Shown: one piece after another, positions 1 to 10,005 of the stretch
How positions within the stretch are numbered: the first letter of the stretch is position 1
Layout of the letters: every line of letters starts with the position of its first letter
The notes under the pieces: generated by a model
The model's input: only the letters and a program-made list of their open reading frames with translations
The model's database searches: none
Told to the model about the DNA's origin: nothing
Position numbers and translations under genes: made by a program
Assembly: GCF_900110255.1 (NCBI RefSeq)
Contig: NZ_FODD01000043.1
Location: 1-64,000 of the forward strand
Length of the DNA: 64,000 nt
DNA from: Actinacidiphila rubida
Lineage (GTDB): Bacteria > Actinomycetota > Actinomycetes > Streptomycetales > Streptomycetaceae
Reading direction: 5' to 3'

Positions 1-2
1 TT

Positions 3-314
3 CACGCCGATCACGGCACCCAGTTCACCTCCTGGGTCTTCGGCGAACGGATCCGCTCCGCCGGCCTCCTGCCGTCGTTCGGCACCGTCGGGGACGGCCT
101 GGACAACGCGATGATGGAATCGTTCTGGTCCTCGATGCAGATCGAGCTGCTCAACCGCAAGCGCTGGAAGACCCGGGTCGAACTGGCCAACGCGATCTTC
201 GAGTTCATCGAGATCTTCTACAACCGCCAGAGACGACATTCAGCACTGGGCTACCGCACCCCCATCGAGTACGAACTACTCTCCGCACAAGACCCCATCC
301 ACGCCGCCAGTTAG
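3..314 (+). CDS. IS3-family transposase, C-terminal part (5' end outside the window)
   Basis: The reading frame is open from the window edge and runs HADHGTQFTS...GDGLDNAMMESFWSSMQIEL...RRHSALGYRTPIEYE to a stop at 312-314. This is the end of the DDE integrase-core (rve) domain of IS3-family OrfB: the DHGTQF block carries the second catalytic Asp, and the catalytic Glu lies in the AMMESFWSSMQIE block. The RRHSALGYRTP block is the usual C-terminal signature of the family. Only the last 103 residues are in view, so whether the element is intact cannot be judged. The sequence just downstream (about 315-350) looks like its right end. Confidence 0.9.
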   Translation, partial: HADHGTQFTSWVFGERIRSAGLLPSFGTVGDGLDNAMMESFWSSMQIELLNRKRWKTRVELANAIFEFIEIFYNRQRRHSALGYRTPIEYELLSAQDPIHAAS

Positions 315-350: not shown

Positions 351-686
351 GGTTTTGGCCACGGCCTGGGCGGCACCGGCACCGAGGTGCTCGCGGATCA
401 CGCCGCGCGCATCGCGCTGTTGACCGACGTGCATGTGCGGGACCTGATGGCCGCGCCCCGCTGCGCACCGCTGCTGTACGGGGTCAACGGCTCCGATCCG
501 GTGGATCTTGCGGGAGTGGAGCAACTGCTGCTCCGCCTGTCGGCTCTGGCCTGCGACGTGCCGCAGCTCGCCGAGGCCGACCTGAGCCCGGTGGTCGCAC
601 GCCCTGACGGCGACCGGGCTCTCGACGTCCGTCTGCGTGTGCTGCCGCGGGAGGCCACGGACCCCTATCTGTGCAGGCTGCGTTGA
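351..686 (+). pseudogene. C-terminal remnant of an ADP-forming acyl-CoA synthetase, cut by the IS3 element
   Basis: The frame starting at 351 reads GFGHGLGGTGTEVLADHAAR, then LLTDVHVRDLMAAPRCAPLL, then DLSPVVARPDG and ends at a stop at 684-686. This matches the last ~110 residues of the ATP-grasp domain of ADP-forming acetate/acyl-CoA ligases: FGLGG loop, then 'plt..da..mi....g..lL.G', then the 'ELdlNPv' strand. There is no start and the N-terminal ~85 percent is missing because the IS3 end abuts it at 350. It converges with the ferredoxin gene and overlaps its last 22 bases. If transcribed at all, it would read into that gene antisense. Confidence 0.75.
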
Positions 687-910
687 GGTTGCTGATCCCT
701 GCCTCGGGCGCGGGTGAGGCGCAGCGCCAGCACCGGGCAGGCGGCCACCGCACGCTTGGCGTGGGTGAGCAGCGGGCCGGGGACGGTGGAGTCCCGTATG
801 ACGGGGTAGCCCCATTCGTCCAAGGTGATCCGTTCCGGCAGCAGTTCGGCGCACAGGCCGTGGCCGTCGCACGCCGCGAAATCGATGCTCAACTCGTGGT
901 CCCGATTCAT
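665..910 (-). CDS. Three-cysteine ferredoxin, last gene of the redox operon
   Basis: An 81-residue acidic protein with a ferredoxin fold of the actinobacterial P450/3Fe-4S type: CDGHGLCAELLPE near the N-terminus and a late CP (KRAVAACPVLAL). Only three cysteines are available (C-x5-C ... C-P), which predicts a [3Fe-4S] or incomplete [4Fe-4S] cluster. The ATG at 908-910 is preferred over the one at 914-916, because the GAGGAGGG ribosome site lies about 6 bases before the former and abuts the latter. Its start overlaps the stop of the NuoF-like gene (ATGA), so it is translationally coupled. It probably exchanges electrons with the NuoF-like flavoprotein. The partner enzyme is inferred from position only. 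Confidence 0.85.
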   Translation of the reverse strand: MNRDHELSIDFAACDGHGLCAELLPERITLDEWGYPVIRDSTVPGPLLTHAKRAVAACPVLALRLTRARGRDQQPQRSLHR

Positions 911-2199
911 CGCCATCCCTCCTCGGCTGCGGGAGGTCCCGCAGGGATCGGCAGCCGCAGCGGTCCGCCAGCGCGGGAGCACGGGCCGTACTGCATGTGC
1001 CGGACGACCTCCTCCCCGAACGCCAGCAGCGCCGACGTGGCCAGCCGGGCCGCGCCGTCGGGGTGCCGGCAGGCTCCCCGGCCCGGCAGGAGTCCGAGCC
1101 GTCCGTTGAGCCGGTCCAGGAGGGCCGTATCGGGCTGTCCCCACGCAAGTTCGGCGAAGTCGTCGGCGACCGACGGGATCCCGAACATGCACGGACCGCA
1201 CTGGCGCGCGCTCTGGGAGCCCAGGTAGGCCAGCACGCCTGCCGTCTCGGCGAGACCACAGGTGTCCTCGGGCAACGCCACGAGGACTCCGGCGCCGCGG
1301 GGCTGGGCCACCGGATCCAGGGGCATCGGCAGCCAGCTTCCGAAGAATCCGCCGGCGAGAACCGCCCCGAGGCGCTCGGTGGGGCCACCTGCCGTGGCCA
1401 GCGCCTGTCGGGCGGATCCGCCCATCGGGATCTCGTACACGCCCGGGTGCCGGACGGCCCCCGACAGCGTCACCAGCGTCGTCCCCGGGGCGGACTCGCT
1501 GCCCAGTTCACGGAACCAGCCCGGGCCGTAGCGGGCGATGAGCGCCATGTGGGCCAGGGTCTCGACGTTGGCGATGAAGGTGGGGCGCTTGCCGACGCCC
1601 TTCTCGAACGGGCGGGGCGGCGTGGAGCGCGGGTGCGCACCGCCGCCGTTCAGCCAGCTCACCAGCGCGGTCTCCTCGCTGGAGACGAAGTGGTGCGGGA
1701 GGGTGTGGACGCGTATTTCCACCGGATCCAGCCCTGCCCGGTGCCGCTCCTCGGTGGCCCGGGAGAGACTCTCGGCCTGGTCGGCCCGGGTGCGAGGCAG
1801 GCACACATGCGCCACCGTGGCACCGGTCGCGGACGCCGCCAGCACGGCTCCGTCCAGTACGAGGTGCGGGGCGAGGTCCAGCAGGGTCTCGTCCTTCCTG
1901 CTGGCCGGTTCGCTCTCCATCCCGTTCGCGACCACGACGGCAGGACCCCGCCGCCCGGCGACCGCACGCAGCTTGCGGCCGGTCGGGAAGGCGCCGCCAC
2001 CGCGGCCGGTGAGCCCGGCCTGCTCGACGGCGTCGGCGAGCGCGCCGGGCGCACCGTCGATCGGGGCCGGCCCGTAGCGGGCCAGGTGGTCGCTCAGGTC
2101 GGCGGGCCGGCCGGTCGCGTACCAGCCGGCGAGAAGGCGGGCTCCGTAGGGTACCGGCATGTCCTGGGCGGCAATCGCCGTGGCCGTCTCGAAGTTCAT
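907..2199 (-). CDS. NuoF-like FMN/Fe-S oxidoreductase (51-kDa subunit family)
   Basis: A 430-residue protein of the complex I 51-kDa family. It has the flavin/nucleotide loop GRGGGAFPTGRK at residues 65-76, the SSEETALVSWLNG block near 173-185, a SLBB-like stretch around 240-290 and a C-terminal Fe-S region with Cys334, Cys337 and Cys377. Canonical NuoF has C-x2-C-x2-C plus a fourth Cys. Here the first position is not a cysteine (ARQCGPCMFG), so the cluster may be unusual. The start is set by GGAAGGAGGGG about 7 bases upstream. It overlaps its neighbours on both sides by ATGA and lies between a heme membrane protein and a ferredoxin. It is likely an NAD(P)H:ferredoxin or NADH-to-membrane electron-transfer module. 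No NuoE or other complex I subunits are nearby. Confidence 0.85.
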   Translation of the reverse strand: MNFETATAIAAQDMPVPYGARLLAGWYATGRPADLSDHLARYGPAPIDGAPGALADAVEQAGLTGRGGGAFPTGRKLRAVAGRRGPAVVVANGMESEPASRKDETLLDLAPHLVLDGAVLAASATGATVAHVCLPRTRADQAESLSRATEERHRAGLDPVEIRVHTLPHHFVSSEETALVSWLNGGGAHPRSTPPRPFEKGVGKRPTFIANVETLAHMALIARYGPGWFRELGSESAPGTTLVTLSGAVRHPGVYEIPMGGSARQALATAGGPTERLGAVLAGGFFGSWLPMPLDPVAQPRGAGVLVALPEDTCGLAETAGVLAYLGSQSARQCGPCMFGIPSVADDFAELAWGQPDTALLDRLNGRLGLLPGRGACRHPDGAARLATSALLAFGEEVVRHMQYGPCSRAGGPLRLPIPAGPPAAEEGWR

Positions 2200-2981
2200 G
2201 CGCTGTCCCCTCCTTCCGGGATGTGGGGTGCGGACGTGTGGGGCGGCGGGGGAACGGCCGGCGCGGTGGCTGCGGGCCTGGACGGGTTGGACGGGAACGT
2301 GGCAGCGGCGCGGTGGGACCAGCCGGGCCGCAGAGGGCCGGTGGCGAGGAACACGGCGAGCAGCACGGGGATGAGAGCGGTGGCGGGCAGGACCCACCAG
2401 CGGACGCGCCGCGCCTCGGCACCGGCCCGTGCCAACCGCCACCACACGGCGCCGAGTACGGCCGCGAGACACGCCGCATACAGCACCAATTGGGGGGTGA
2501 GGCGGGTGTCGGTGCCGGTGCCGGCCGCATGGAACAGGGCGACGGGCCACGCCGCGTACGCCGCCCAGTGCACCGCCTTCCACCAGCGGTGCCCGATCCT
2601 CTGCCGGAACGCGCTGGTGATGGCCACGGCCAACAGCAGGTCCAGCGCGACGGCGCCCAGGCCCACCCACACGGGCCGGTACGACGAGGCGAGCGGGACG
2701 ACGGTGGCCGGCCAGCCGATGTGGGTGAAACTGTCGGCGATGGCCGTGACGATGTGCAGGGCCAGGAACACCAGCGTCAGCAGCGACAGATTGCGATGCA
2801 CCGCTGACACCTCGAACCGGCCGATGTTCCGGGGTGCGTAGCGCCCGGCCGCGGCGATCCCGACGACGACGGACAGCGTCAGCAGGACGAGTGAGGCGGT
2901 TCCGGCGGCCCGGGTGGCGTACCACAGAGGACTCGGACCGGACGACGAGGCGAGCAGGACAGCGGCGTGGGCGGAGTTCAT
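2196..2981 (-). CDS. Ferric-reductase-like transmembrane heme protein
   Basis: A 261-residue membrane protein with about six hydrophobic spans. Two of them carry histidine pairs at heme-binding spacing: His62/His76 (14 apart, VHRNLS...ALH) and His138/His151 (13 apart, VHWAAY...LFH). This is the di-heme signature of the ferric reductase/MsrQ/YedZ-like superfamily. The C-terminal ~45 residues are Pro/Ala/Ser-rich and follow the last span. There is no flavin or NAD domain, so electrons must come from a partner, presumably the NuoF-like protein coupled downstream. Both ends overlap neighbours by 4 bases (ATGA). The exact terminal acceptor (iron, quinone, extracytoplasmic flavoprotein) cannot be told from sequence. 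Confidence 0.8.
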   Translation of the reverse strand: MNSAHAAVLLASSSGPSPLWYATRAAGTASLVLLTLSVVVGIAAAGRYAPRNIGRFEVSAVHRNLSLLTLVFLALHIVTAIADSFTHIGWPATVVPLASSYRPVWVGLGAVALDLLLAVAITSAFRQRIGHRWWKAVHWAAYAAWPVALFHAAGTGTDTRLTPQLVLYAACLAAVLGAVWWRLARAGAEARRVRWWVLPATALIPVLLAVFLATGPLRPGWSHRAAATFPSNPSRPAATAPAVPPPPHTSAPHIPEGGDSA

Positions 2982-3952
2982 GTGTGTACCCCTTCCCGTT
3001 CCACCCCTTCCTGGGGCCAGCCGTTGAGGCGCACCGCCGTTCCGTCGGCACGGACCAGGCGCGCCGGCAGCCCGGTGGCACGCACCCAGTCCACGGCACG
3101 CTCGCCCAGCACGATCGCTGCCGTGCTGGCGGTGTTGGCGTCGACGCAGCAGGCCGCCGCGACACTCGCGGTGCGCCAGACCGTCGGGGCACTGTCGCCC
3201 GTGACCGGGTCGACGATGTGATGCCGCGGGCGGCCGCCGCGCTCCCATGCCCGCACAGTGGTGCCGGACGTGGCGAGACCGCCGCCGCTCAAACTGATCA
3301 CGGGTGCCCCCGGCCCGGCGGGCTCGGCGTGGTCGTCGGCAACGGCGATGCGCCATCCGGCGTCCGGTGCGTGCCCCGCCGCCGACAGATCGCCGCCGAG
3401 GTTGACCAGCACGCCGCAGCCCGCCACCGCGGCGGCCGCCCGCGCCGCGCGGTCCGCGGCCAGCGCCTTGGCCGTGGCACCCAGATCGAGCGCGGCCCCC
3501 TCCGGGAGCCTCAGCAGCCGTAGCTCCGGATCCCAGCCGACCGACTGCCACCCCTTCGCCGGGTGCAGCTCGGGTGCCGGGCCGGTGCGCGCGATCCGCC
3601 TGAAGGTGACGTCGTAGCCCAGTGCCACCTCGGCCGGCCCCACCGTGGGATCGACGACTCCGTCGGTCAGATGTGCGGCGCGCAGAGCCACCTCGATGGC
3701 CTCTGCCAGCAGCGGCCCCACCGGCACCGGACGGCCCGTGCCGGCGGAGGCGTTCGCACGGGACAGCTCGGAGTCCGGGCGGAAGCGGCTGCACGCGGCG
3801 TCGATGGCGGCGAGCTCCGAGCGGAGCACGGCCAGGGCGCGGTGGGTGCGCGAAGGATCCGTGGTGAGCAGGACCGCCGTGGTGCCGAGCGCGGGGAAGG
3901 AGACGCGGTCGATCGCACCGGCGGGGCCGGTCAGGCTGGAGGTCGGCGTCAT
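2978..3952 (-). CDS. apbE: FAD:protein FMN transferase (ApbE family)
   Basis: A 324-residue protein with the ApbE hallmarks: an N-terminal F-PALGTTA strand, CSRFRPDSELSR at 54-65, VVDPTVGPAEVALGYD at 99-114, LDLGATAKALAADRAA at 155-170, VNLGGDLS at 183-190 and HHIVDPVTG in the last third. Family members move FMN from FAD to a Ser/Thr of a target protein, usually outside the membrane. No lipobox or clear signal peptide is visible, so it may act in the cytoplasm or be exported without one. None of the operon products has a recognisable FMN-binding-domain acceptor site. It overlaps the genes on both sides by ATGA. Confidence 0.9.
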   Translation of the reverse strand: MTPTSSLTGPAGAIDRVSFPALGTTAVLLTTDPSRTHRALAVLRSELAAIDAACSRFRPDSELSRANASAGTGRPVPVGPLLAEAIEVALRAAHLTDGVVDPTVGPAEVALGYDVTFRRIARTGPAPELHPAKGWQSVGWDPELRLLRLPEGAALDLGATAKALAADRAARAAAAVAGCGVLVNLGGDLSAAGHAPDAGWRIAVADDHAEPAGPGAPVISLSGGGLATSGTTVRAWERGGRPRHHIVDPVTGDSAPTVWRTASVAAACCVDANTASTAAIVLGERAVDWVRATGLPARLVRADGTAVRLNGWPQEGVEREGVHT

Positions 3953-4443
3953 GATCCTCCCGTCGTGGTCTGGGGGGGCTGCGTCGTCGGCGCCGGGGGT
4001 TGCGTCGGGGGACGCAGCCCGGTGGACGGCTTGGCGGGCTTGGCCGTCCGGTGCGCGGGGGACGACGGCTTGACGGCCTTGGGCGTGGGGGAGGGGTGGC
4101 CGGGAGCCGGGGGAGACGTGCTTCCGCCATGCGCCGGAGTCGGTACGTGACTCGGACGGGCAGACGAGCCCGAGGGCGTGTGGCCGACAGCCGACGGCGC
4201 CCCGGCGGTGCTGGACGGCCCGCCTGCCGGCGGCTGCGTAGGGGAGGGGTGCGGCGCTGAACCACCCGGGATCGCGGATGCGTAACCCGCCCCCAGCGCC
4301 GCGGTGCCCACGACCGCGGCCGCCACGGCCAGGCCGGTGGTGGCCCTGACCCTCGTCCGCCCCCGCTCACGCCGGCGTGCCGTTTCCTCCACCGGCAGAT
4401 CGGCGGTGGGGCGCGGACTCCGGAACTGGTGGTGACGGCGCAT
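3949..4443 (-). CDS. Membrane-anchored Pro/Ser-rich extracytoplasmic protein, first gene of the redox operon
   Basis: A 164-residue protein with a basic N-terminus (TARRRERGRTRV at 21-32), one membrane span at about 37-57 ending GAGYASAIPG, then roughly 105 residues almost wholly of Pro, Ser, Thr, Gly and Ala. It is expected to sit with its C-terminal tail outside the cell, as a flexible spacer through the wall. The 7488-7796 product has the same plan, and GAGYA (51-55) and IPG (58-60) fall at the same residue numbers, so the two are paralogs. No catalytic motif is seen. It heads the ATGA-coupled operon. A TCAG direct repeat with conserved flanks lies about 70 bases upstream. Confidence 0.7.
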   Translation of the reverse strand: MRRHHQFRSPRPTADLPVEETARRRERGRTRVRATTGLAVAAAVVGTAALGAGYASAIPGGSAPHPSPTQPPAGGPSSTAGAPSAVGHTPSGSSARPSHVPTPAHGGSTSPPAPGHPSPTPKAVKPSSPAHRTAKPAKPSTGLRPPTQPPAPTTQPPQTTTGGS

Positions 4444-4512
4444 GGCGTGGATGTCCTCACGGCAGGAGACGGCAACGGTTGTTCACCAGCCTGCCGTGCG
4501 GGCCGTCGGGAA

Positions 4513-4543
4513 CCCGTTCAGGGAATGCTCAGAAGTGGTTAAG
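4513..4543 (-). promoter_or_regulatory. Candidate response-regulator operator upstream of the redox operon
   Basis: TTCAG at 4517-4521 and CTCAG at 4528-4532 form a direct repeat with 11-bp period, the usual layout for OmpR/PhoB-type regulators. The 31-bp block from cccgttc to ggttaag matches 25 of 31 positions with 7862-7892, which stands at nearly the same distance (about 66-70 bp) from the paralogous gene. The most likely binder is the regulator encoded at 5943-6626. This is inference from arrangement. Confidence 0.6.
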
Positions 4544-4581
4544 ACCTGCCTGGCCCTGTGTGGACACGTCAAATGTGCAGG

Positions 4582-5946
4582 TCAGCGGGCATCGGAGGGA
4601 AGATCGACGACGACGGTCAGCCCTCCGCCCGGGGTGTCCTCCAGCTGCACGGCCCCGCCGTTGGCGGTGAGCAGCCGGTGCACGATGGCCAGCCCCAGCC
4701 CTGTCCCGGAGGCCTCACCACCGCTGAAACGGTGGAAGGCGCTCTTCTGCGCCTCCTCGCTCATCCCGGGGCCGTCATCAGCCACGGTCACGATCACCCG
4801 CTCGTGCCGCATCCGACCGGTGACGGTCACCTGGGCGCCCTCCCCGACGGCGTCCAGCGCGTTGGCGAGGAGGTTGTCGAGCACCTGCTCAAGGTCGCCG
4901 GGGCCGAGGTGGGCAGTGAGCCCAGGACGGCAACGGGCGGCGAGCCGGACCTGCCGCTCCTGCGCTACCGGCGTCCAGGCTGCGATCCGGTCCGCCACCA
5001 CCTCGTCCACGCCCACGGCGACGGGCCGCGGCACCGCGTTCTCCGCGCGGGCCACGGCCAGGAGCCCGTCGACGAGGCGCGACAGCCGGGCGATCTCCTG
5101 CTGGGCGGCGGCGAGCTCCGCACCGGTGGCGTCGTCCGCATCGGCCGAGAGCATGTCGAGCCGGAGGCGCAGCGCGGCAAGCGGCGTCCTCAGCTGGTGC
5201 GATACATCCGCGATCACCGCCCGATGGCCGTGGATCAGTGCTTCCATGCGGGCCGCCATCGTGTTGAAGGTCGACGCCAGCCGTCGCACCTCGACCGGCC
5301 CCCGTCCACCGGCCGCACGCACGTCCAGACGGCCCTCGCCCAGGTCGCGAGCGGCCACATCGACGGCTCGCAGCGGCCGGCCGACCCATCGCGCGAGCAG
5401 TACCGCCAGCAGCGCTCCGGCGGCCAGACCACCGAGACCGATGACGGCCAGCCGCGTCCACATCGCCTCGATCCGGTCGTTCGTCGGTTCTTCCGACCGT
5501 GACAGCACCGAGGCGCCTACCGGCTTGGACTCGTCGCCGACCGTCACCGCGACGGCCAGCCGGTCGTCCGCCGTGCGCATGGCCGTGCCGCCGTGCGCGA
5601 GCACCGTGCGGGCGAGGGCGGACCACTCCTGACGCGTCGCGGCATTCTGTGCGGCGTCCTGGTCCGGGCAGGAGGTGACGGCAACCTCCCCTCCCGTGGC
5701 GTCGAAGACAGCGGCACAGTCGCCGGGCTGGGCACTTCGCCGGAGAAGTTGCTGAAGAGAGGCCGAGGAACCACGGTCGGAGAGGTGCTCCTCGGCCGCG
5801 GCGGCCAGCGTGCGGTCCGCCGCTTCGGTGCCGTCCCGGAACGAGGCCCGCTCACGCCCGGAGAGCGACAGCCCGAGCGGCACGACGGCCAGCACCAGCA
5901 GCACCGTGACCAGGGCCATGACCGCCAGCGCGATGCGGCGGGTCAT
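4582..5946 (-). CDS. Membrane sensor histidine kinase
   Basis: A 454-residue protein: first span at residues 5-28, an extracytoplasmic sensor region to about 160, second span at 164-186, HAMP linker (RPLRAVDVAARDLGEGRLDVR) near 190-210, HisKA box ADVSHQLRTPL with phospho-acceptor His250, then HATPase motifs (VLDNLLANALD, DDGPGM, GTGLGLAIVHRLL). The sensor region holds only two cysteines, Cys77 and Cys93 (GDC...TSC), which could form a disulfide and act as a redox sensor. That is inference. The ATG overlaps the response-regulator stop by 4 bases (ATGA), so the pair is co-translated. It lies directly upstream of the redox operon. Confidence 0.92.
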   Translation of the reverse strand: MTRRIALAVMALVTVLLVLAVVPLGLSLSGRERASFRDGTEAADRTLAAAAEEHLSDRGSSASLQQLLRRSAQPGDCAAVFDATGGEVAVTSCPDQDAAQNAATRQEWSALARTVLAHGGTAMRTADDRLAVAVTVGDESKPVGASVLSRSEEPTNDRIEAMWTRLAVIGLGGLAAGALLAVLLARWVGRPLRAVDVAARDLGEGRLDVRAAGGRGPVEVRRLASTFNTMAARMEALIHGHRAVIADVSHQLRTPLAALRLRLDMLSADADDATGAELAAAQQEIARLSRLVDGLLAVARAENAVPRPVAVGVDEVVADRIAAWTPVAQERQVRLAARCRPGLTAHLGPGDLEQVLDNLLANALDAVGEGAQVTVTGRMRHERVIVTVADDGPGMSEEAQKSAFHRFSGGEASGTGLGLAIVHRLLTANGGAVQLEDTPGGGLTVVVDLPSDAR

Positions 5947-6626
5947 GGCACCTCAGGGGGAGTGGGCTGGGCGTCGGGAGTGCCGAGCCGGAACCCCCTG
6001 CCGTACACGGTCTCCACGAGGCCGGGGCGGTCCAGCTTGCGCCGCAGCCCCGCCACGTGCACGTCGAGCACCTTCGTCGGCCCGTACCAGTGCGCGTCCC
6101 AGACGCGTTCCAGGATCTCCTGCCGCGAGACCACACGCCCCGGATCGACGGCGAGCGCCTCCAGGATGTCGAACTCCTTCGGCGTCAGTGCCACCTCGCG
6201 TTCACCGACCGTCACCGTCCGGGTGCGCAGGTCCACGGTGAGGTCGGCGTGCCGCAGCAGTTCGCGATCGGCCGGGCGCACCCGCCGCAGCACCGCGCGG
6301 ATCCGGGCGAGAAGCTCGGCCAGGCCGAACGGCTTGACCAGATAGTCGTCGGCGCCTTCGTCGAGCGCCGCCACCCGGTCGCCCTCCTCGCCGCGAGCCG
6401 TCACGACGATGATGGCCAGCTCGGAGCGTCCGCGCAGCTGCCTGCACACCTCGACGCCGTCCATGTCCGGCAACCCGAGATCCAGCAGGACGACGTCGGG
6501 CTCCGGTGACGCCGCGAGAGCCGCCTGCCCGGACGGCACGGCGGCAGCTTCGTACCCGGCCCGCTCCAGACCGCGCACGAGAAGGTCGGCGATCCCGGGG
6601 TCGTCCTCCACAACCAGCACCCGCAT
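5943..6626 (-). CDS. OmpR-family response regulator
   Basis: A 227-residue protein with an N-terminal receiver domain (acidic pair VEDD at 6-9, phospho-acceptor Asp49 in VVLLDLGLPDMDG, DDYLVKPFG) and a C-terminal winged helix (LTPKEFDILEAL...VVSRQEILERVWD...VLDVHVAGLRRKLD...VYGRGFRLG). It is partnered with the kinase whose start overlaps its stop. Three TCAG-N7-TCAG direct repeats in the surrounding 4 kb fit DNA binding by an OmpR-type dimer. One of them (6788-6803) lies about 160 bp upstream of this gene, so autoregulation is possible. Confidence 0.93.
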   Translation of the reverse strand: MRVLVVEDDPGIADLLVRGLERAGYEAAAVPSGQAALAASPEPDVVLLDLGLPDMDGVEVCRQLRGRSELAIIVVTARGEEGDRVAALDEGADDYLVKPFGLAELLARIRAVLRRVRPADRELLRHADLTVDLRTRTVTVGEREVALTPKEFDILEALAVDPGRVVSRQEILERVWDAHWYGPTKVLDVHVAGLRRKLDRPGLVETVYGRGFRLGTPDAQPTPPEVP

Positions 6627-6787
6627 TCCCCCATCCTAGGTTCGCGACCAGGCCGCGCACCTGCGTGTCCCTCCGGGGGAACGGCGGTCCGTCACGCGAG
6701 GACCGCTCCTCCCCATCAGGGAGAACCGCACATTCCCGGCCGCACCCCCTTCATCTGGCAAGCCGTCACCTTCACTCCGGCTGCCGA

Positions 6788-6803
6788 CTCAGAGGATGCT
6801 CAG
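6788..6803. promoter_or_regulatory. Third TCAG direct repeat, between the regulator gene and the DUF2231 gene
   Basis: CTCAG at 6788-6792 and again at 6799-6803, exact 11-bp period, within actcagaggatgctcagaag. The core atgctcagaag is identical to that at 4525-4535. It lies in the divergent region, about 160 bp from the response-regulator start and 95 bp from the DUF2231 start, so it could serve either gene. Relative to the regulator gene it has the same orientation as the two other sites have to their genes. Confidence 0.55.
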
Positions 6804-6898
6804 AAGTTGCCCTGGAAGGCTGCCAGCTCTCGCGCCGCCACTTGGGTCCCACAAGACCTCGTGCGCATCCTGACGACCTTTTCTTCACCGGAGCACTC

Positions 6899-7441
6899 AT
6901 GAGCCCCACGCAGATCGACGGCCTGCCGGCCCACGTCCTCCTTGTCCACTTCATCGTCGTGATGGTGCCCCTGACGGCTCTGGCGGCAGTCGTCTGCGCG
7001 GTCCAGCCGCGCTTCGCCCGGCGAATAGGCCTGGTGCTTCCTCTGCTGGGACTGGCGACGCTCGTCATGGTGCCGGTCACGACCCATGCAGGAGAGTGGC
7101 TGGAAGCGCGAGTTGGCGACGATCCCCTCGTGCACCAGCACACCGAACTCGGTGACGGCCTGCTGCCCTGGGCGTTCGGGCTGTTCGCGGCGACGCTCGC
7201 CGTGTGGTGGACGGGGCGGCGGTTCGGGCAGCCCACCGAGCGCGGCCACGTCGCGTCGGACGGGCCCTCGCCGGCCGGCGCGCGTCGGGCAGCGCCTGCC
7301 ATCGTGCGAGCCGGGGTCCTGGCCCTTGCCGTGGCCGTGTCCGCGGGTTCCGTCGTGGACGTCTACCGCATCGGTGAGTCCGGGGCGAAGGCCGCCTGGC
7401 ATGACGCCTACGACAAGTCCGCGAGCGCGCAACACGGTTGA
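6899..7441 (+). CDS. DUF2231-family membrane protein
   Basis: A 180-residue protein starting at ATG 6899, with CGGAG about 6 bases upstream. The N-terminus (IDGLPAHVLLVHFIVVMVPL) is the characteristic opening of DUF2231 proteins. Four hydrophobic spans follow at roughly 10-33, 41-60, 86-103 and 133-153. Histidines sit at the membrane edge: His12 and His17 near the start, then a THAGEW...VHQHTELG loop. Members are integral membrane proteins of unknown biochemical role, often next to redox or heme proteins. Position beside the kinase pair and the shared TCAG repeat suggests it belongs to the same regulon. Confidence 0.75.
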   Translation: MSPTQIDGLPAHVLLVHFIVVMVPLTALAAVVCAVQPRFARRIGLVLPLLGLATLVMVPVTTHAGEWLEARVGDDPLVHQHTELGDGLLPWAFGLFAATLAVWWTGRRFGQPTERGHVASDGPSPAGARRAAPAIVRAGVLALAVAVSAGSVVDVYRIGESGAKAAWHDAYDKSASAQHG

Positions 7442-7487
7442 GAGCACCTCCTACCGTTCGCCTCGCCGCCGTCGGACAGAACGTCCC

Positions 7488-7796
7488 TCAGGACGCACCG
7501 GACTGGGTGTGCGGGGCTCGTGAAGTCGCACCGGGGGCAGATGAGGGTGGCTGGAGCCCACCAGAGGTGCCGGAGTGGGTGCTCCCCGACGGGCTCGCGG
7601 GCAGTTGAGCCTGGACGCCAGGTATCTCGTGTGCGTAGCCCGCGCCCAGAACCGCGGCCCCGGCGACGGCGGTCGCCATCGCCCAGCGCGTCGCCGTGCC
7701 GACGCGCCGGCGCCCCTCTTCTCTGCGTTGCGCGGCTTCGCTCACACTCACGGGTCGGTGACCGCTCGGATCGCCGCTCGGCGGGTGGACGGGCAT
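7488..7796 (-). CDS. Second membrane-anchored Pro/Ser-rich protein, paralog of the 3949-4443 product
   Basis: A 102-residue protein: basic N-terminus (QRREEGRRRV), one span at about 35-55 ending GAGYAHEIPG, then a 42-residue Ser/Pro/Gly/Thr tail. The ATG at 7794-7796 is chosen because GGGGAGG lies 6 bases before it, although the frame is open to 7841. With this start the RRV, GAGYA and IPG blocks fall at the same residue numbers as in the paralog at 3949-4443. The tail is much shorter than in the paralog. No function is recognised. It is preceded by a copy of the regulon operator at 7862-7892 and converges with the DUF2231 gene. Confidence 0.65.
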   Translation of the reverse strand: MPVHPPSGDPSGHRPVSVSEAAQRREEGRRRVGTATRWAMATAVAGAAVLGAGYAHEIPGVQAQLPASPSGSTHSGTSGGLQPPSSAPGATSRAPHTQSGAS

Positions 7797-7861
7797 GAGG
7801 CGCCTCCCCGGGTCGGGGGACAGGTAGTCCATCTCCACCATGCCGCGTAGGACGTCAGGAT

Positions 7862-7892
7862 CCCGTTCGCGGAGTCTTCAGAAGGGGTTAAG
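7862..7892 (-). promoter_or_regulatory. Candidate response-regulator operator upstream of the second anchored protein
   Basis: The block cccgttcgcggagtcttcag (7862-7881) continuing to gttaag (7892) matches 25 of 31 bases of 4513-4543, with the strongest identity in cccgttc, tcagaag and ggttaag. Only the second TCAG half-site is perfect here; the first reads TTCGC. It ends about 66 bp before the chosen start, the same spacing as in front of the redox operon. Confidence 0.55.
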
Positions 7893-8381: not shown

Positions 8382-8458
8382 TGGTAGCGGGGACAGGATT
8401 TGAACCTGCGACCTCTGGGTTATGAGCCCAGCGAGCTACCGAGCTGCTCCACCCCGCG
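8382..8458 (-). tRNA. tRNA-fMet(CAU), initiator
   Basis: Read on the minus strand the gene starts CGCGGGG TGGAGCAGCTCGG and has the anticodon loop CTCATAA flanked by three G:C pairs (GGG...CCC), the mark of initiator tRNAs. The T arm is GCAGGTTCAAATCCTGT. The acceptor end is CCCCGCTA followed by an encoded CCA (8382-8384). The first base pair is a C1:U72 mismatch, as expected of initiator tRNAs in actinobacteria. It is flanked by a perfect terminator hairpin. Confidence 0.96.
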
Positions 8459-9642: not shown

Positions 9643-10005
9643 TTGCCAGGAATTGACCAGCTCGAGTTTCGACACGTTCTGGCAGGGTGCTGGGGTCGCC
9701 GTGCTGCGTGGTTTGCTGCGAAGAGGGCTGACTTGCCTGAGTGTGATAGAAGCATCCGATGCTTGCGCTCCAGCCTCGCCAAGCGGTTCGCCAAGGACAC
9801 CGTGCTCGTCGTGGACGGCACTCTGGTCCCCACCCGGGACCACCTCCGCGACTGCCGCTTGAAGGGCGATGGTGTCCACCACGCCATGGCCGGCATCGCC
9901 CGGATGCACAACCTCACGCTCGCCGGGGAGCTCCCCGACAGGCCCGCCCGGCCCGCTCGGCTGACCTGTCCCGTGCGATTCGTGCGACGCATCCGATCCG
10001 TCTGA
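9643..10005 (+). pseudogene. Internally deleted IS5-family transposase remnant
   Basis: The frame contains KRFAKDTVLVVDGTLVPTRD, which is the first catalytic-Asp strand of IS5-type (DDE_Tnp_4) transposases. It then jumps directly to LRDCRLKGDGVHHAMAGIAR and MHNLTLAG, the C-terminal helix region of such enzymes. The ~150 residues between (second Asp and Glu) are missing. The phrase LALQPR just before KRFAKD appears in a different frame (from 9759), so there is also a frameshift. It is not functional. No terminal repeats could be defined by eye. Confidence 0.55.

Follow-up and report, generated by a model that had tools for sequence, protein, structure and literature searches.

Which genes are controlled by the short direct repeats that surround a two-component system of Actinacidiphila rubida, and what would those genes do? 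The stretch analyzed here, called the window, covers bases 1 to 64,000 of contig 45 in the 9.0-Mb genome. On its minus strand, an OmpR-type response regulator (RR1) and a sensor histidine kinase are followed by a low-complexity protein with an N-terminal hydrophobic segment (ANC1), the flavin transferase ApbE, an MsrQ-like membrane protein, a NuoF-like flavoprotein and a small ferredoxin; a DUF2231 gene lies on the plus strand, and an ANC1 paralog, ANC2, lies beyond it on the minus strand. A preliminary description had proposed that three copies of one repeat (sites 1 to 3) tie the electron-transfer operon, the DUF2231 gene and ANC2 into a single regulon. Taken as a whole, the explanation that we consider best, at a probability of roughly 0.57, is that sites 1 and 3 would serve as operators for the two-component system whose genes they flank, that ANC1 and ANC2 would be flavin carriers, and that site 2 would be a separate element. 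The sites and the genes next to them are:

4516..4543, minus strand: site 1, a triple 11-bp repeat (CTTAACC-ACTT-CTGAG-CATTCC-CTGAAC), candidate promoter element of the ANC1-ApbE-FRE-NuoF-Fdx operon (FRE, ferric-reductase-like protein; Fdx, ferredoxin)
4488..4493, minus strand: -10-like CAGGCT, 22 bp after site 1, with a putative promoter role
7865..7892, minus strand: site 3, a second copy of the site 1 element, upstream of ANC2
7837..7842, minus strand: -10-like CATGGT, 22 bp after site 3, also with a putative role
6788..6814, plus strand: site 2, the putative DUF2231 promoter element YTCAGA-N5-CTSAGAAGTTG, best explained as a site of the type read by a second regulator, RR2
5943..6626, minus strand: RR1, OmpR-type response regulator (Pfam Response_reg and Trans_reg_C)
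4582..5946, minus strand: sensor histidine kinase with a PAS-like extracytoplasmic sensor and invariant Cys77 and Cys93
6899..7441, plus strand: DUF2231 membrane protein
7488..7796, minus strand: ANC2, paralog of ANC1, C-terminus HTQSGAS, without a downstream ApbE gene

Exact pairs of half-sites with an 11-bp period are present where they had been described, TTCAGGGAATGCTCAG at 4517-4532 and CTCAGAGGATGCTCAG at 6788-6803. These are the only exact occurrences of YTCAG-N6-YTCAG in the window, with 0.27 expected, and 3 of 100 shuffles reach two; by itself the pattern is mildly unusual and constitutes weak evidence, and it is conservation in other genomes that carries the case. The 31-bp block said to be common to two of the sites was recovered as well (4513-4543 and 7862-7892 are identical at 25 of 31 positions). 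The distance of 66-70 bp from both blocks to paralogous genes holds if ANC2 starts at 7796, a start preceded by the ribosome-binding-like sequence GGGGAGG, but not for a longer open reading frame (ORF) starting at 7841. What was not confirmed is the notion of three copies of one element. The third repeat fits YTCAG-N6-YTCAGAAG with two mismatches only, which is at chance level (3 found, 1.69 expected), and sites 1 and 3 share a longer motif, on which site 2 scores -3.1. This motif spans 28 bp, CTTWACC-N4-CTGAR-N6-CTGAAC, and is located 22 bp upstream of a -10-like hexamer.

The scores on this motif come from a matrix (the RR1 matrix) built from 40 distinct sites of related loci, namely the 47-locus set described below and further relatives, with the window excluded. 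Within the window, it gave 34.9 for site 1, 30.8 for site 3 and 4.4 for the next best position. A chance origin of sites 1 and 3 was rejected, as 20 simulated windows (first-order Markov) reached at most 12.1. When the matrix was restricted to 25 distant sites, sites 1 and 3 still ranked first and second (28.2 and 26.1; next 6.0).

Is the element inherited together with the two-component system? Searching with the kinase protein returned 68 loci, of which 47 were used (L032-L078) and 21 with distant kinases were dropped; the 47 comprise Streptomycetaceae, two contigs of one actinomycete metagenome-assembled genome and one Actinospica, and the closest kinases include those of Streptomyces acidipaludis and Actinacidiphila species. 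ApbE lies downstream of the kinase in 38 of the 47 loci, and 34 of these 38 have matches to RR, kinase, ApbE, reductase, NuoF and ferredoxin; in the other four, L043, L065 and L073 end early and L059 has no reductase match. The system with its operon was found in Streptomyces, Kitasatospora, Streptacidiphilus and Actinacidiphila. All 38 ApbE operons carry the element right after the kinase stop codon or overlapping it (consensus CTTTACCAGTTCTGAAGAATTCCTGAAC), and the hexamer 22 bp past it has A at the second and T at the sixth place, each in 34 cases, so that conservation upstream of orthologs was confirmed for site 1.

The 28-bp pattern was also searched, with up to three mismatches, in a comparison set of 35 searchable genomes of the genus, where it gave 15 matches and a reversed-pattern control gave 8. 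All nine matches with up to two mismatches fall in the seven genomes with a kinase match (E up to 1e-60), at the operon or at ANC2; the six with three mismatches do not follow this rule, and one three-mismatch match, in G023, adjoins an RR2-type regulator, in keeping with a kinship of the half-sites. Among 394 genomes of the family Streptomycetaceae, a related pattern produced 19 matches in 18 genomes (control, 2), with the kinase present at 19 of 19 loci. This family pattern is insensitive, since it finds the site in only 15 of 32 kinase genomes (E up to 1e-140), plus three others. The confinement of the matches to the operon and ANC2 of kinase genomes suggests that the regulon is tiny, consisting of the operon and, where present, ANC2. 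These comparisons support the view that sites 1 and 3 define a small regulon tied to the OmpR-type regulator and the kinase of this locus, and RR1 is the best candidate to bind them: it carries receiver and Trans_reg_C domains, and the target promoters carry conserved half-sites with an 11-bp period, both features of an OmpR/PhoB-type regulon.

Several observations weigh against this part of the reading. The finding of the site at all 38 operons is partly circular, as sites of orthologous operons served to build the RR1 matrix. Among the nine loci lacking ApbE, L048 has a site near the contig end, L077 and L078 are truncated, and six (L035, L039, L042, L052, L068 and L075) possess RR and kinase and show no site above 17.4; the RR-kinase pair can therefore exist without the operon. 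Other weak matches (8-17) occur at L037, L068, L069 and L075, while at L034 and L038 it is the site itself that is matched on its reverse strand. L042 and L019 share a contig; after the RR-kinase pair of L042 comes a convergent ferredoxin-NuoF-reductase set that has neither an ApbE match nor the site and may be a flavin-independent variant.

Does site 3 work as an operator, or is it a mere leftover of the duplication that produced ANC2? ANC1 and ANC2 are paralogs whose upstream regions are alike throughout, as expected for a leftover. Stand-alone ANC2-type genes with the element were, however, found in 7 of the 47 loci (S. acidipaludis L032; Streptomyces sp. L036; Streptacidiphilus L063, L066, L067, L071 and L072). 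The element is retained at ANC2-type genes oriented divergently to RR in L036 and the five Streptacidiphilus loci (scores 23.8-31.1), and S. acidipaludis keeps it (34.4) in the arrangement seen in the window despite diverged coding sequences. We consequently regard a leftover as very unlikely. The operon and ANC2 would thus be the two targets: phosphorylated RR1 is predicted, from the position of the sites, to bind the three 11-bp half-sites, immediately upstream of the -35 region, and to activate both promoters. Autoregulation of RR1 was not indicated: in the window, the 450 bp upstream of the RR gene score at most -3.1 on the RR1 matrix.

What signal might the kinase respond to? All 48 kinases compared (the window and the 47 loci) have Cys77 and Cys93 without exception. 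In an AlphaFold2 model of residues 1-185 (mean predicted local distance difference test score 91), one cysteine is placed at the start of a strand and the other lies three residues past the following strand, and the solved relatives of the sensor include WalK/YycG extracytoplasmic sensors (ranks 1, 2, 5 and 6; E 3e-6 to 7e-4). We infer that the kinase senses the redox state outside the membrane through Cys77-Cys93. The sections of PMC12802291 on CutRS and CssRS describe kinases with two conserved extracytoplasmic cysteines, which control activity in CutS, and the local kinase resembles them in this respect. Identity with CutRS, considered because of the two sensor cysteines, was dropped: unlike the element conserved here, the CutR site given in those sections is TAWATAAA, and the core targets named there are secretion-stress genes.

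Does site 2 belong to the same regulon? By eye, the DUF2231 element reads YTCAGA-N5-CTSAGAAGTTGnCGTG followed by a -10-like AGGCTG. This pattern gave 13 matches in 10 of the 35 genus genomes (control, 1), 12 of them preceding DUF2231 genes as judged by position, and 5 of the 10 genomes (G005, G017, G026, G031 and G032) have no kinase match at E up to 1e-60. In G026 and G031, DUF2231 adjoins another kinase-regulator pair (RR2) and an ApbE cluster, with agreeing FMN_bind and ApbE coordinates. The genome of A. rubida itself contains, on contig 11 (L161), a second flavinylation module that encodes an RR2 regulator 41% identical to RR1, a reductase, an FMN_bind protein and ApbE. YTCAGA-N5-YTSAGAGG-type repeats stand at 17 of 18 RR2 regulator/reductase promoters found among 24 genus loci. 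On a matrix from 11 distinct RR2-operon sites, one of them from contig 11, site 2 ranks first in the window with 20.2 (maximum of 20 simulated windows, 17.8), and sites 1 and 3 rank second and third, below the simulated maximum. Of 29 DUF2231 upstream regions (L006, L032 and L033 were left out as duplicates of other rows), 19 score 13 or more. Because the element occurs in genomes without a kinase match, and because site 2 scores 20.2 on the RR2 matrix versus -3.1 on the RR1 matrix, site 2 is probably an RR2-type element separate from sites 1 and 3, most likely read by RR2 as regulator of the second ApbE/FMN_bind module. Two further DUF2231 paralogs exist in the A. rubida genome (L118 on contig 15 and L121 on contig 36), and the copy on contig 15 alone carries the site 2 element.

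This assignment of site 2 is not free of difficulties. Its score lies below that of every RR2 training site (29.9-39.6), 1 of the 18 RR2-operon pairs lacks the RR2 element, 10 of the 29 DUF2231 upstream regions score below 5, and many of the 19 regions scoring at least 13 reach only 13-18, several of them staying under the simulated 17.8. In addition, RR1 and RR2 half-sites are alike, and five other genomes (L006, L011, L032, L045 and L051) have DUF2231 no more than 400 bp from RR1, so that cross-talk between RR1 and RR2 at site 2 may occur. The same two facts, together with the placing of sites 2, 1 and 3 as the top three of the window by the RR2 matrix, would fit the model of the preliminary description, in which the operon, ANC2 and DUF2231 make up one regulon through binding of RR1 at each of the three sites. 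That model is nevertheless unlikely, given the low score of site 2 on the RR1 matrix, the maintenance of the DUF2231 element in five genomes without a kinase match, its presence at an unlinked paralog of the same genome, and the orientation of the half-sites relative to the gene, which is opposite at site 2. Among the 35 genus genomes, membership of DUF2231 in the RR1 regulon thus found no support, as its element differs from sites 1 and 3 and its spread is not limited to kinase genomes. The proposed link through a shared site is supported for the operon and ANC2, but not well supported for DUF2231.

What, then, does the regulon encode? The genes and motif codons concerned are:

3949..4443, minus strand: ANC1, low-complexity protein with an N-terminal hydrophobic segment, C-terminus QTTTGGS
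3952..3963, minus strand: codons for the C-terminal T-G-G-S of ANC1, the proposed flavinylation tail
7491..7502, minus strand: codons for the C-terminal S-G-A-S of ANC2
2978..3952, minus strand: ApbE flavin transferase, start overlapping the ANC1 stop
2207..2981, minus strand: ferric-reductase-like (MsrQ-like) membrane protein
907..2199, minus strand: NuoF-like flavoprotein (Complex1_51K, SLBB, NADH_4Fe-4S)
665..910, minus strand: small ferredoxin (Fer4_15; three cysteines)

A PF01794 protein, ApbE and a NuoF-like protein thus occur in one cluster of the window, as in MsrQ-like flavinylation systems, and ApbE aligns with solved flavin mononucleotide (FMN) transferases (best 4xgw, E 5e-21). FMN_bind had been expected in the gene between the kinase and ApbE, and Pfam gave no match for ANC1 or ANC2, the two window copies scanned. 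We examined the equivalent gene in the 38 operons by requiring an ORF with a stop between -150 and +120 relative to the projected ApbE start, with no filter on how the ORF ends. Such an ORF of 99-198 amino acids (aa) is present in all 38 (in three loci another frame also holds one); its last codon and stop are TCATGA in 35 and TCGTGA in 3, the stop overlapping a possible ATG or GTG start. The N-terminus is basic and precedes a hydrophobic segment (best 19-residue window), L073 being an exception, perhaps through the start chosen, and the tail is of low complexity. All 38 proteins end in [ST]-[GK]-[AG]-S and thus in Ser, with Gly at -3 in 37 (the other ends in SKAS) and Ala (29) or Gly (9, including ANC1 of the window) before the terminal Ser. 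A separate, motif-filtered listing of C-termini has no candidate in L009, L029 and L048; the counts given here are unfiltered.

This ending looks like the ApbE flavinylation motif, placed at the extreme C-terminus of proteins without a recognised FMN-binding domain. The passages on the motif in the review PMC12052999 give it as D-x-x-[ST]-G-A-[ST] with FMN on the last residue, and report that replacing Asp by Ala has a minor effect and that Ser is accepted less well as FMN acceptor. From this resemblance, ANC1 and ANC2 are proposed as ApbE substrates, with FMN on the C-terminal serine of a flexible tail. Three features count against the proposal. The Asp of the motif is missing, its position being occupied by His (22), Gln (14), Thr (1) or Pro (1); ANC1 of the window has Gly for the Ala of the motif; and no signal peptide is visible in the operon ApbE by eye, nor in the contig 11 ApbE, whereas the charge pattern of ANC places its tail outside. 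Modification would therefore precede export, or the tail would be cytosolic.

Could the ending be dictated by the DNA rather than by the protein? The ApbE start overlaps the ANC1 stop and GGGGG-like codons occupy the position expected of a ribosome-binding site, so that a ribosome-binding site and a start/stop overlap might by themselves conserve the C-terminus. Yet the seven stand-alone ANC2-type genes, translated unfiltered in the homologous frame, all end in SGAS or TGAS, and ANC2 of the window also ends in SGAS, which argues against such an artefact, and the Gly of the motif is encoded by GGA, GGT, GGG and GGC; we consider a pure DNA constraint quite unlikely. Another possibility is that the C-terminus is a signal for a protease, a PDZ-type ligand or the target of an anchoring enzyme, ANC itself being structural or sensory. 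The absence of the classic Asp, the low complexity of the tail and the lack of a Pfam match for the two window copies would agree with this, but the tail fits [ST]-G-A-[ST] or its Gly variant and in all 38 loci the gene runs up to the apbE start, which leaves such a role rather improbable. With flavinylated ANC proteins, the products would form a path across the membrane in which electrons would pass from NADH to the NuoF-like flavoprotein, the ferredoxin, the MsrQ-like heme protein and finally covalent FMN on ANC1 and ANC2, the flexible tail with FMN on its C-terminal serine replacing a folded FMN-binding domain.

How does this arrangement compare with known flavinylation systems? The sections on gene clusters in the survey of Meheust et al. 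(eLife 2021, PMC8238504) describe MsrQ-like clusters, 31 of them with a NuoF-like PF10589 protein, and state that some ApbE substrates are still unidentified. The cluster studied here likewise combines a PF01794 protein, ApbE and a NuoF-like protein, but a domain-less tail protein occupies the slot where those systems, as characterized in these sections, typically have a gene for an FMN-binding domain, and, unlike them, it includes a two-component system. The part of an mSystems 2024 study (PMC11334425) dealing with substrates adds Flavodoxin_4 and FMN_red, the FMN_red sites lying on an unstructured C-terminal extension. This extension is the nearest precedent seen for the ANC tail, which also carries its motif on an unstructured C-terminal stretch; the FMN_red extension, however, sits beside a folded flavin-binding domain, and none is recognised in ANC. 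In Streptomyces azureus, SaFMN3 is presented in the relevant passages of PMC10339131 as a protein with three FMN-binding motifs. As named in the portions of these sources on substrates, ApbE targets comprise FMN-bind, DUF2271, DUF3570, Flavodoxin_4, FMN_red, fumarate/urocanate reductases and NqrB-type membrane subunits, all of them domains or enzymes.

The contig 11 module also joins regulator, ApbE and reductase, and its FMN_bind protein shares with ANC an N-terminal hydrophobic stretch and a low-complexity linker. Unlike ANC, this substrate ends in an FMN_bind domain with the classic DSVSGAT, and RR2 has a promoter element of its own, so that the RR1 regulon would be set apart from a second, parallel flavinylation module. 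A further comparison is the engineered Flavin-tag (Tong et al. 2021, as outlined in PMC12052999), a seven-residue motif that works best at a protein terminus: ANC proteins bear a similar motif at the terminus, whereas these natural tails lack the Asp of D-x-x-[ST]-G-A-[ST] and end in Ser. We lean slightly towards regarding the ANC proteins as natural "flavin tags" of Streptomycetaceae, that is, membrane-anchored tails with C-terminal Ser-FMN added by ApbE, which would serve in single or double copy as tethered carriers without a flavin-binding fold and be governed by a disulfide-sensing two-component switch. If true, ApbE would have a new class of substrate in these domain-less C-terminal flavin carriers, natural counterparts of an engineered label, while the regulon supplies a likely signal, targets and operator for the two-component system. 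A literature search covering few subscription-journal papers yielded no description of a domain-less C-terminal ApbE substrate or of this two-component system.

Around the locus, the left edge of the window (1-314), near where the electron-transfer operon ends, presumably holds the 3' end of an IS3-type integrase gene, and the ORF at 9643-10005 resembles what we take to be a transposase fragment. A tRNA-Met gene (anticodon CAT) is located on the minus strand at 8382-8458, about 490 bp beyond site 3. Farther along, the segment 44001-48000 is of unusual composition, with an AT skew of 0.31, a GC skew of -0.16 and a GC content of 0.67.

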